A DNA stretch of 64,000 nucleotides from positions 1 through 64,000 of the forward strand of contig JAJTGR010000036.1 in NCBI GenBank assembly GCA_021299375.1, written 5' to 3'. This DNA comes from Gemmatimonadota bacterium. GTDB taxonomy: Bacteria > Gemmatimonadota > Gemmatimonadetes > Gemmatimonadales > Gemmatimonadaceae. This document shows positions 33,563 to 37,354 of this stretch, piece after piece. Made by a program: the position numbers and the translations under genes. The notes below the pieces were generated by a model that was not told the origin of the DNA, searched no databases, and saw nothing but the letters and a program-made list of their open reading frames with translations. Every line of letters starts with the position of its first letter. Within the stretch, counting starts at the first letter, position 1.

Positions 33563-36500
33563 TCAGCGATAGTTGTGCCCCTGGATGTGCTGCTCGCCGC
33601 CGCCGAGTTCGAGCGCCTTGAACTGTTTGGCCCGCACGTTCACCACCTGACCTTCCACCTGCAGCGTGCCGCGGATGAGCAGCAGCGGCGAGGTGGAGAT
33701 GAGCAGCGCGTGCTGGTCGAAGCGGTCGGGGGTGATGACGATGTTGATCATCCCGGTTTCATCCTCGAGGGTGAGGAACACGAACCCCTTGGCGGTGCCG
33801 GGGCGCTGCCGGCAGATCACCAGGCCGGCCACGGCGACCGGCTGACCATCCTTGCCCCGCTCGTGGGCTTCCTGCGCGGTGAACACGCCGTTGAGCGCGA
33901 GGTGCGGGCGTACATGTCGCATGGGGTGACCGGCGAGCGAGAGGCCGGTCATGCGGTAGTCGGCTTCGGTAAGCTCCACAGGCGTCGCGGCGGGGATCTG
34001 CGGCGCGGGGGCCGGTGGGGTGCGCGGGGCGAGTGGCAGTTCGGGGCCGCGCGTGGCGGCCATCACTTCCCAGAGCGCCACCCGCCGCCGGCGAGCGGGG
34101 GGCTCATGCGCGAACAGGGTGTCGAATGCCCCCGCTTCGGCGAGGCGGCGCCAGGCGGCCTTGTCGAGTGCCACACGCTGCACGGCATTCTCGACGCTCG
34201 TGAACGGGCCGTCGCGCAGCGCCGCCTCGAGCGCGCGGCGAGCCTTCGCGCCGAGGCCACGTACGAGACGCACACCAAGACGCACGGCGAGGGGTCGGGA
34301 GGCCGGCGGATCATCGGCGGCGGCTGGCGCGGCGGGCCGGCCCCACCGCACGGTGCCGTCGTTGGGTACCAGCGTCCGGCCGTCGGGCAGCTCGAGGCTG
34401 TGGTCCCACATACTCTCCGTGAGATCGATGGGGCGCACCGTCACGCCGTGCCGCCTGGCGTCCTCGATGAGCGTACTCGGCGAGTAGAAGCCCATGGGCT
34501 GCGCGTTGAGCATGGCGCACAAGTATTCGGGCGCGTAGTAGTGCCGCAGCCAAGCGGTGGCATATACGATCAGCGCGAAGCTCGCGGCGTGGCTCTCGGG
34601 AAAGCCGTAGTCGGCGAAGGCGTTGATCTGGTTGTAGATGCGGCGGCCGGTCTCTTCGGGGATGCCGTTGCGCGCCATGCCGGCGATGAGCTCCTCGCAG
34701 ATGGCGGCCATGCGTTCGCGCGAGCGCTTGTGCCCCATGGCGCGGCGCAGCACGTCGGCCTGACCGGGGGTGAAGCCGGCGGCCGCGATCGCCACCTGCA
34801 TCCCCTGCTCCTGAAAGAGCGGTACGCCCAGCGTACGCCGCAGCACGTGCTCCAGCGATGGATGCGGATAGGTGATGGGCTCGAGCCCAGCGCGGCGGCG
34901 CAGGTACGGATGCACCATCTCGCCCTGAATGGGACCCGGCCGGATGAGCGCGACTTCGACGACGAGATCGTAGAAGCAGCGCGGCCTGAGGCGTGGCAGG
35001 GTGTTCATCTGCGCGCGGCTTTCGATCTGGAAGAGCCCCACGGTGTCGGCGCGGCAGATCACGTCGTACACGGCCTGATCGCTCATGTCGAGTTGGCCAA
35101 GATCCACGGTCACGCCGCGCGTATGCCGGATATACAGCAGGCAGTCCTGCACCACGGTGAGCATGCCGAGGCCGAGCAGATCGATCTTCACGAGACCGAC
35201 GGGATCGAGATCATCCTTCTCCCACTGGATGACGGTGCGCCCCGGCATGGAGGCGGGCTCGATGGGCACCACCGAGCCGAGTGGCTCCTCGGTGAGGATG
35301 AAGCCACCCACGTGGATGGAGCGATGGCGCGGCAGCTGATGCAGCCCGTTCACCACGTGCGCGAGCTGCCGCACGCGCGGGTCGTCGGGATCGAGGCCGG
35401 CGCGCTGCAGGAGTTCGCGCCCGCTGCTGGAGTCGCGCGTGGCGGTGCTGCGATTGCGCTCTTCGACGAACTCGCGGGGCGTCTCCTTTGGCTCGTCGAG
35501 GGGGAGGCGGGAAGAGGGGTCGACCTTCTGGCGCACGATGGGGCGCGCGCGACCGCCGGGGCGCACGCCGTCGGCGCCCTTGGCGAGAGGGCCCAGCTGG
35601 GCACGCTCGTCGCTGGCGAGCTTCTGTTCGGCGCGCAGGTCCATGAGTTGCTGCCAGGTGGCATCGCGGAGGATGGCCGGCTCGATGGGCGGTGCGGGAA
35701 CCGCACGCACGGAGGGCACGGAGGATGGTGAGGGCGCGGAGGGGCGCGTGGCAGATGCGGCAACTTTGCGTGATGCCTCACGGACGACGCGGGCTTTTGT
35801 GGTCGCCTCGGTGCCGCCACGCATCTGTTGGCCCAGGCGTGCCGCGTCGCCATGCGCAGACGCCTCATTCACGCGTTGACCGTTCTCCGTACCCTCACTG
35901 TCCTCCGTGCCCTCCGTGTGCGCTGTGTCCGCCGTACTCTCGGCCGCATCGACCCGCAGCGCCGCCGCCGTACTCTTCGCACTGAACCGGTCACTCAGCG
36001 CGGCCAGGGCCTCCGCCTGCTTCGTGCTGAAGCCCAGTACGCGCGCCGCGTCCCGCACGGCGCTGCGGCCACGCCAGCTGATCTGCTCGCACACCATGGC
36101 GGCGTGCTCGCGGCCGTAGCGGTTGTACACGTACTGCAACACGCGCTCACGATCGCGGTGCGCGAAGTCGATGTCGATGTCGGGCGCCTCCTGTCGCTCC
36201 TCGCTCAGGAAGCGCTCGAAGAGCAGCTCCATGCGGATGGGATCGACCGCGGTGATGCCGAGGCAGAAGCAGACGGCAGAGTTGGCGGCCGAGCCGCGTC
36301 CCTGACACAGAATGCCTTCGCGTCGGGCGAACCGTACGATGTCCCATACGATGAGAAAGAACCCGGCCAGGTCGAGCTTGCGGATCATGCCGAGTTCGTG
36401 GGCGAGCTGGCGATCGTGCTTCGGGGTGCGTGTGTTGCCCCACCGCTCGTGCGCCCCCTGCTCGACGAGGCGGGCGAGATACTCGGGTGCGGTGACGCCG

Positions 36501-37354
36501 GGCGGCAACGGAAACGCCGGCATGGTGGGCTTGAGCTGCTGCAGCCGGAACGCGCACCGGTCGGCGATGCGGAGTGTGGCCCGCACGCCCTCCTCGGCCC
36601 CCCGCCAGCGCCGGTAGATGAGCCGCGGGGCCTTGAGCGCCCACTCCGCGTTGGGTCTGAGGCGCGTACCCATGGTGTCGAGCGTGCGTTCGTGGCGCAG
36701 CGTGGTGAGCACGTCATGCACGAGGCGCACTTCGGGGGTGGCATAGTGCACGTTGTTGGTGACGACCCACGGCACACCGAGTCGTGCCGCCAGCGGCTGC
36801 AGCTGCTTCACCAGCACGCGTTCTTCCGGCAGCCGATGGTCCCAGCACTCGATGGCCAGGTGCTCACCGAACACGTCGCGCAGTTCGGTGGCCGCGGTCC
36901 ATGCCTCGTCAGGCTTGCCCTCGGCCAACAGCTGGGGCACCCAGCCACGGGGGCAGCCGGTGAGCGCCGTGACCCCCTGCACATGGCGCGTGACGAGCGC
37001 CCAAGGCACGCTGGGGTGGCCGCGTACGCTGTCCAGGCGGGCCCGGGTGACCAAGGTGGAAATGTTGCGGTACCCCTCGCGCGTCTCGGCGAGCAGGACG
37101 AGGTGTGTGCGGCGCTCGCCCCCGCGATTGCCCAGCTCGGGCATGCGGACCGTAAGCTCGACGCCGAGAATCCCCCCCACGCCAACGGCTTCGCAGGCCG
37201 TGCCGAAGCGCACGACCCCACCCATCTCGTCGTGGTCGGTGAGCGCCAGGGCCGGGTAGCCCAGGGCTGCCGCCTGCTCGGCGAGCGCTTCGGGGAGCGA
37301 GGCGCCGTCGAGCAGGGAGAGGGCGGAGTGGCAGTGGAGTTCGGCGTACGACAT
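33563..37354 (-). CDS. dnaE2: Error-prone DNA polymerase DnaE2 (ImuC)
   Basis: A C-family polymerase of 1263 residues. It has an N-terminal PHP domain (AELHCHSALSLLDGAS), the palm aspartates in PDIDIDFAHRDRERV (about 391), the fingers, the HhH region with VRLVRGLGAKAR, and a C-terminal OB fold ending QHIQGHNYR. DnaE2 performs lesion bypass with ImuA and ImuB after DNA damage. Relatives are about 1050-1090 residues; this one carries an extra 190 or so (about 460-650) that is charged and low in complexity. Part of that insertion is an inverted-repeat element (35706-35922). A TTCGG-N6-TTCGG operator lies 8-23 bases before the ATG. The frame continues upstream to 37852, but that is antisense to the divergent PYP gene. 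Confidence 0.95.
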   Translation of the reverse strand: MSYAELHCHSALSLLDGASLPEALAEQAAALGYPALALTDHDEMGGVVRFGTACEAVGVGGILGVELTVRMPELGNRGGERRTHLVLLAETREGYRNISTLVTRARLDSVRGHPSVPWALVTRHVQGVTALTGCPRGWVPQLLAEGKPDEAWTAATELRDVFGEHLAIECWDHRLPEERVLVKQLQPLAARLGVPWVVTNNVHYATPEVRLVHDVLTTLRHERTLDTMGTRLRPNAEWALKAPRLIYRRWRGAEEGVRATLRIADRCAFRLQQLKPTMPAFPLPPGVTAPEYLARLVEQGAHERWGNTRTPKHDRQLAHELGMIRKLDLAGFFLIVWDIVRFARREGILCQGRGSAANSAVCFCLGITAVDPIRMELLFERFLSEERQEAPDIDIDFAHRDRERVLQYVYNRYGREHAAMVCEQISWRGRSAVRDAARVLGFSTKQAEALAALSDRFSAKSTAAALRVDAAESTADTAHTEGTEDSEGTENGQRVNEASAHGDAARLGQQMRGGTEATTKARVVREASRKVAASATRPSAPSPSSVPSVRAVPAPPIEPAILRDATWQQLMDLRAEQKLASDERAQLGPLAKGADGVRPGGRARPIVRQKVDPSSRLPLDEPKETPREFVEERNRSTATRDSSSGRELLQRAGLDPDDPRVRQLAHVVNGLHQLPRHRSIHVGGFILTEEPLGSVVPIEPASMPGRTVIQWEKDDLDPVGLVKIDLLGLGMLTVVQDCLLYIRHTRGVTVDLGQLDMSDQAVYDVICRADTVGLFQIESRAQMNTLPRLRPRCFYDLVVEVALIRPGPIQGEMVHPYLRRRAGLEPITYPHPSLEHVLRRTLGVPLFQEQGMQVAIAAAGFTPGQADVLRRAMGHKRSRERMAAICEELIAGMARNGIPEETGRRIYNQINAFADYGFPESHAASFALIVYATAWLRHYYAPEYLCAMLNAQPMGFYSPSTLIEDARRHGVTVRPIDLTESMWDHSLELPDGRTLVPNDGTVRWGRPAAPAAADDPPASRPLAVRLGVRLVRGLGAKARRALEAALRDGPFTSVENAVQRVALDKAAWRRLAEAGAFDTLFAHEPPARRRRVALWEVMAATRGPELPLAPRTPPAPAPQIPAATPVELTEADYRMTGLSLAGHPMRHVRPHLALNGVFTAQEAHERGKDGQPVAVAGLVICRQRPGTAKGFVFLTLEDETGMINIVITPDRFDQHALLISTSPLLLIRGTLQVEGQVVNVRAKQFKALELGGGEQHIQGHNYR
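35706..35922. repeat. Inverted-repeat element inside dnaE2 coding sequence
   Basis: The arm at 35706-35741 and the reverse complement of 35885-35922 share GGAGGGCACGGAGGA, then after two mismatches GTGAGGG, and after two more CGGAG (27 of about 32 aligned core bases). The arms are 143 bp apart. The whole 217-bp unit is translated within the extra region of DnaE2 (about residues 478-550). Short repeats rich in CTCCGTG are dispersed in some environmental bacterial genomes, so this may be a miniature mobile element. No clear target-site duplication is seen. Confidence 0.8.

Follow-up and report, generated by a model that had tools for sequence, protein, structure and literature searches.

Inverted copies of a genome's own interspersed repeat, in frame, within the DnaE2 linker of a Gemmatimonadota bacterium

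How does the gene for an ordinary enzyme come to carry a long palindrome within its reading frame? This question is raised by the dnaE2 gene of a Gemmatimonadota bacterium (assembly GCA_021299375.1; G000 below), which lies in a window of 64,000 nucleotides (from contig JAJTGR010000036.1; by the window, we mean the whole stretch of DNA that was analyzed). The gene's product matches the NCBIfam profile PRK05672 (error-prone polymerase) with 1237 bits. An earlier note, made from the sequence alone, had proposed that a miniature REP- or MITE-like element, bounded by inverted arms, had entered the gene in frame and was tolerated on the protein's surface. The relevant features are:

33563..37354, (-) strand: dnaE2 coding sequence, error-prone DNA polymerase (MSYAELHCH..., 1263 aa)
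35399..35995, (-) strand: hypervariable insertion of 199 codons, from SDRFSA to GLDPDDPRV (coordinates computed by hand from the frame)
35885..35932, (-) strand: 5' arm (in the coding sense), a repeat copy read as ..AHTEGTEDSEGTE.., frame xCR GAG NNC
35742..35884, (-) strand: inter-arm interval of 143 bp, which is DnaE2's conserved linker core RLGQQM.GGTEATTKARVVREA.RKVA and not repeat
35694..35741, (-) strand: 3' arm (in the coding sense), an inverted repeat copy read as ..PSAPSPSSVPSVRAVP.., frame TCY GYG NNC

The inverted arms are indeed there and in frame, although each is 48 nt long rather than the 36 and 38 bp that had been claimed. They are 81% complementary, they are 143 bp apart, and they are the top inverted repeat of the entire 64 kb window (considering arms of at least 22 nt that are at most 600 bp apart). 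Their gapped score is 51, as compared to a maximum of 25 in 60 shuffles, and their ungapped score is 22, as compared to a maximum of 13 in 30 codon shuffles. The coding strand across the arms (271 nt) has a predicted fold of -151.8 kcal/mol (z = -6.5, and none of 200 shuffles equaled it). We found no intrinsic terminator (a stem-loop and then a T tract) in the dnaE2 arms. According to the predicted translation, the frame is open through the arms, both here and in the second enzyme that we discuss below.

The earlier note had also stated that the arms lie in a region of about 190 residues that is missing from the usual DnaE2 proteins, and this region is real. At the corresponding site, the alpha subunit of Taq Pol III has about 20 residues instead of 199 codons (DnaE2 residues 454 and 652 align with chain residues 525 and 547 of 2hpi), and the DnaE2 of one congener (L053) has 25 residues as compared to 199. 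Among the DnaE2 genes of the relatives, the arms are missing from 25 of 30 rows, but the region of about 190 residues is present in nearly the whole genus. It is hypervariable, and the repeat is a minor part of it. Furthermore, the core between the arms (RLGQQM..GTEATTKARVVREA.RKVA) is also present in rows that have no arms. We found no convincing second copy of the inter-arm interval in the genome; the best match was 24 nt on contig C71 (E = 9.5e-4), and the others were weaker. The sequences that flank the dnaE2 arms are hypervariable, and no target duplication is legible there or at the strongly diverged intergenic site of the C41 hairpin described below. Nor was a clean empty site found among the relatives' loci that we compared. 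It is plausible that the linker is exposed on the surface of DnaE2; an AlphaFold model of residues 200-1000 was poor (mean pLDDT of 46.7, pTM of 0.30) and was left unused.

What are the arms, given that the sequence between them belongs to the polymerase? They are full members of a repeat that is dispersed in their own genome. A search of this genome with the arms gave 105 rows at E <= 10. After manual merging, about 45 places were left on 13 contigs, all outside the window, that match one or both arms at E <= 0.01, so the further copies that the earlier note had suggested looking for do exist. The copy numbers are probably underestimated because five contigs of this assembly start inside repeat arrays (C115, C20, C106, C22, and C36; loci L009, L012, L015, L019, and L020). 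The consensus of 17 copies, including both dnaE2 arms, is about GAACAGCCCACACGGAGGGCACGGAGGACGGTGAGGGCACGGAGGA. Both dnaE2 arms fit this consensus over its full length, including the family-specific GAAC.GC side, within which the 5' arm has one mismatch.

Outside of dnaE2, the copies form tandem arrays (with a period of 44-46 bp) or hairpins. For example, the stem of the hairpin on C41 is some 50 bp long (-112 kcal/mol, z = -17), and the copy on C26 is a hairpin with a T tract (TTTTTTT) behind the stem. There were no matches to Rfam above the gathering score in six copy-bearing loci. According to our in-house gene caller, which is based on codon usage, 16 of the 17 clusters outside of dnaE2 are at most 80 bp from the stop end of a gene, and three of these 16 overlap the end of a called gene. 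The genes on the two sides were both called for 11 clusters: they are convergent in 6 cases, tandem in 5, and divergent in 0. Among all 18 clusters, the only ones counted as within a gene are the one in dnaE2 and one at the end of a gene. At 1630-1680 of L020, one copy overlaps with the 3' terminus of a GIY-YIG / UvrC-like gene and seems to provide its last codons. Across 61 relatives, CACGGAGGNCACGGAGG (allowing one mismatch) is frequent in G000, G010, G032, G034, and G058, and in most of the others it is close to the reversed control.

Do the relatives of this bacterium have arms in the same gene? Of the 61 genomes that we searched, 47 matched DnaE, and from these we took 30 DnaE2 loci: 29 from the genus (including our own) and 1 from the same family. 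The gapped test for arms skipped the 11 rows without the core motif, and these were then covered by an ungapped test of all 30 rows, with 30 shuffles per row. Long inward-facing arms flank the DnaE2 core in five of the 30 rows (G000, G025, G015, G005, and G010). By eye, L033, L031, and L030 have a single stretch of the arm type on the 3' side, with double units confirmed in L030 and L031. Also by eye, the 3' arm of G025 is displaced downstream by about 37 codons relative to the other rows, and it is read in a different frame. The distant rows L032 and L053 have no arms. On a tree that was built without the linker, the presence of arms requires four label changes, of which at least three are forced by well-supported branches.

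The arms of each gene resemble the repeats of their own lineage and not the arms of other species. When we compared the ten dnaE2 arms to 28 copy loci, 8 scored highest against a copy from the genome that they belong to; the remaining 2, which are the arms of G005, scored highest against the sister genome G015. Within a gene, one arm matches the other with 47.3, 51.8, 58.1, 62.6, or 46.4 bits, while arms from different species match with at most 34.6 bits outside of the sister group of G003, G005, and G015. The arms of G025, and those of G015 and G005, have more copies within those genomes. The repeat of G025 is different from that of G000: of its 20 clusters (from the 30 of 32 matches that were taken as loci), 9 are convergent, 7 are tandem, 0 are divergent, and 4 are inside genes.

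DnaE2 is not the only enzyme with such arms. In G025, two more copies are within the linkers of E2 acyltransferases: L173 is the E2 component of pyruvate dehydrogenase (PDH), according to a profile match, and has the repeat between its lipoyl and E3-binding domains, and L172 is, by eye, a second E2 acyltransferase. We then collected 28 PDH E2 loci from the genus, of which 8 lacked anchors and 20 were scorable, and 7 of these 20 beat all of their 30 shuffles. If we consider the lipoyl-PSBD linker alone, with 200 shuffles, then none of the shuffles equaled G025, G002, G018, or G008, while G004, G022, and G021 were unremarkable. In L252, L257, L258, and L231, such hairpins were seen in frame in the PDH E2 linker that joins the lipoyl domain to the E3-binding domain. 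The same place can have different palindromes outside of genes as well. The C41 hairpin lies between convergent genes, and when the orthologous site was compared in 13 relatives, it held an unrelated long palindrome in 7 (G005, G015, G009, G017, G006, G028, and G021) and none in 6. These palindromes differ by species, for example CCCACAAC or repeats of GCAGACG (L218-L230 as compared to L011).

How could a protein put up with such a sequence? By inspection, the 9-nt unit CRCRGAGNN is free of stop codons in all three forward frames and in two of the three reverse frames, whatever the last two nucleotides are. The peptides encoded by the arms are hydrophilic: TE(G/D) (TEG/TED) and PSV/SA (PSV/PSS). 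We suggest that dnaE2 tolerates the repeat because the 9-nt units preserve the frame, are stop-free in five of six frames, and encode a hydrophilic peptide. Among arms with two clear units, 7 of 8 of the 5' arms read xCR-GAG-NNC and 9 of 9 of the 3' arms read TCY-GYG-NNC. This bias argues modestly, and not more than modestly, that the peptide is under selection, because the background favors the same frames (34 of 52 single units in dnaE2 genes for the first and 23 of 36 for the second) and because the rows are partly related.

We infer from its distribution alone that the repeat moves. The earlier note had pointed to a transposase acting in trans, and we looked for the RAYT-type Y1 transposase (PF01797): there were no matches in G000, whose genome is 96% complete. 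PF01797 was present in 3 of the 11 genomes searched (G005, G015, and G032), and it was also missing from G010, G025, G034, and G058, which have many copies or a pair of arms in dnaE2. We dropped the idea that the repeats derive from RAYTs, as G000 lacks the Y1 transposase. Plasmids or phages are not supported as vehicles either, because relatives of one canonical hairpin were found in just 12 of 72,556 plasmid records and 3 of 50,697 phage records.

The dnaE2 arms also resemble a widespread hairpin that is built from CRCRGAGNN units. A strict pattern of three units yielded at least 118 stretches (L054-L171) from many phyla, and among the matches listed, inward-facing hairpins of three units occur outside of genes in Acidobacteria, Planctomycetes, Chloroflexi, Betaproteobacteria, Bacteroidetes, and others. 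For 125 seed clusters among these matches, the partner was inward-facing in 59 cases, outward-facing in 6, and direct in 10. With self-trained gene calls, which excluded loci that were shorter than 3500 bases or contained N runs and left 20 of 112 clusters at an edge, 79 of the 92 non-edge clusters among these matches are outside of genes, as compared to about 15% of random positions. TT.AC or AAGC often precedes the first unit in the matches listed. Within the phylum of our bacterium, 49 of 298 genomes have the strict pattern, with from 1 to over 240 hits each; we excluded G087 as evidence because its reversed control was also high. Three genomes (G112, G306, and G222) have 150 to over 240 strict triple units, and most genomes of the phylum have none. 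The strict three-unit pattern has no match in G000 itself, so its repeat is tied to the wider family by resemblance, not by proof: with its CACGGAG units and its inward polarity, it appears to be akin to that family.

We are not sure that "hairpin" is the right name for what is maintained in the wider family. Among the matches listed, in 49 pairs of arms from other phyla, the spacers agreed at 63 of 196 positions, as compared to a mean of 67.7 for shuffles. Purine agreement in these pairs was equal in register (0.820), off register (0.815), and within one arm (0.823). A selected stem in the wider family is not supported, as these 49 pairs of arms (from other phyla, among the matches listed) show no pairwise co-variation. 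The 7-mers look to be conserved as sequence and not as pairs, and given the lack of stem co-variation in other phyla, the hairpin may be the wrong functional unit. We found no description of the 9-nt-unit repeats in the open-access literature, a scope that leaves out most subscription journals. A Bacteroides fragilis primer sits within such a repeat (PMC3090145). Also, two large replicons of Gemmatirosa kalamazoonensis (NZ_CP007129.1 and NZ_CP007130.1) contain hairpins that share about 73-74% identity with a hairpin of Bacteroides finegoldii.

Is this a known kind of element? The closest known kind is the in-frame palindromic elements such as RPE, to which we liken our arms by description and not by sequence. 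Such palindromes are known from Rickettsia, Wolbachia, and Methanocaldococcus jannaschii, and elements of the RPE/WPE type are described as dyad-symmetric repeats that lie in frame in housekeeping genes, mostly in non-structured segments (PMC2996958; RPE is also mentioned in PMC2635572). As with RPE/WPE, we see a palindromic repeat within the open frame of ordinary genes (dnaE2 and PDH E2). Unlike RPE, the family that we describe is mainly intergenic, behind stop codons, with no substantial share within genes; its arms flank host sequence; and the repeat at the same site differs by species. PARCEL is another case of translated palindromic DNA that is patchy across phyla (PMC2996958), and our repeats share both traits. 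However, PARCEL are coding domains that are often in tandem and in membrane or surface proteins, whereas our repeats are intergenic or in the linkers of cytosolic enzymes; DnaE2 belongs to a family of cytosolic polymerases, and its arms flank a host core.

REPs are defined as short, palindromic, intergenic sequences with many copies, in inverted pairs or tandem arrays (PMC8266576). Our repeat is likewise short, palindromic, multi-copy, mostly intergenic, and arranged in inverted pairs or tandem arrays, but unlike the REPs and BIMEs that go with TnpA-REP, it occurs in a genome (G000) that lacks the Y1 transposase, and its arms are longer and are built on a 9-nt unit. REPs have a conserved 5' tetranucleotide, most often GTAG. 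GTAG is absent from our 17-copy consensus, although it is not universal among REPs. Finally, the arms are reminiscent of a MITE, in that they are inverted and the repeat is non-autonomous, but there is no interior that belongs to an element (the interior is conserved host sequence) and no matching transposase was found.

How did the arms get into dnaE2? We favor, with a probability of roughly 65%, that inward-facing copies of the genome's repeat arrived in the DnaE2 linker repeatedly, by copying, and were kept as linker peptide. The arms of dnaE2 are two inward-facing copies of the genome's own repeat, on either side of the conserved core of a hypervariable linker, while elsewhere the repeat takes the form of hairpins or tandem arrays right behind stop codons. 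The copying process would use trans-acting machinery and would deliver arms again and again, and those arms that can be read as linker peptide would be retained. In favor of this account are the arms' membership in the repeat family, the position of the other copies at gene ends, the presence of DnaE2's own core between the arms, the genome-specific arms around that core in other species, and the similar arms in PDH E2. Against it are the failure to find a clean empty site, a target duplication, or an enzyme, the modest size of the frame bias, the shifted 3' arm of G025, the lack of stem co-variation in other phyla, and the lack of a strict-pattern match in G000. The idea that a single REP- or MITE-like element was inserted once, with the arms as its terminal repeats, fits the inverted arms, the other copies in the genome, and the tolerance in frame. 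It is largely refuted because the interior is the conserved core of DnaE2, which is present in relatives without arms; the interior is also not repeated in the genome, and G000 has no RAYT-type Y1 transposase, so we consider it to be very unlikely. We think just as little of simple-sequence slippage, in which local duplications lengthened low-complexity linkers with many T/E and P/S codons, and shared codon usage made them look alike. There are plain cases of this in neighboring rows, such as (TP)n in L036 and (DTRDI)n in L030. But the match to the dispersed repeat spans about 45 bp and includes the family-specific flank GAAC.GC, the arms of other species also match copies in their own genomes, and slippage does not produce inverted arms.

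A more serious competitor, which we nevertheless rate as unlikely, is that the genus ancestor had one old hairpin in its dnaE2, whose arms have since been overwritten by the current repeat families or, in many lineages, lost; the core would then be the former loop. In both major clades, there is a CTCYGYG-type stretch right after VAA[ST] (at the 3' site of L024, L033, L035, and L037 and of L030, L031, and L051), the palindromes at the C41 intergenic site have turned over in place (7 of 13 relatives with an unrelated one and 6 of 13 with none), and just 3-4 changes are needed on the DnaE2 tree. This account requires one arm to be replaced by another that is nearly unrelated (G025 and G000 arms match with 29.2 bits at best), and the distant rows L032 and L053 are without arms. 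If instead the arms were maintained because they regulate dnaE2 as a hairpin, in RNA or DNA (by pausing, stability, or transcription arrest), then the strong fold of the coding strand (-151.8 kcal/mol, z = -6.5) is what we would expect, but we give this hardly any credence: the hairpin is missing from 25 of 30 relatives, the dnaE2 arms have no terminator-like site, and the arms of the wider family lack pairwise co-variation.

Returning to repeated arrival by copying, we can extend this tentatively: a dispersal system that recognizes inward-facing CRCRGAGNN units, and that is active in many phyla, might repeatedly rewrite palindromes at fixed sites, including the linkers of DnaE2 and PDH E2. 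This is a speculation that we find possible rather than probable. If it is true, then each species would acquire a different palindrome at the same place, and the dispersal system would provide new linker peptide.

In any case, the feature is real and unusual. It is an RPE-like use, in frame, of a repeat that is otherwise found behind genes, and the single-transposon reading is too simple. In a phylum beyond the cases from Rickettsia, Wolbachia, and an archaeon, members of one genus repeatedly have repeats in matching places of ordinary enzymes, and these repeats are unrelated to each other and specific to each genome. These bacteria offer a natural series for studying how a repeat moves without a visible transposase and how protein linkers arise from non-coding DNA. 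The series also bears on what it is that reads the widespread hairpins of 9-nt units that lie behind genes in many phyla.
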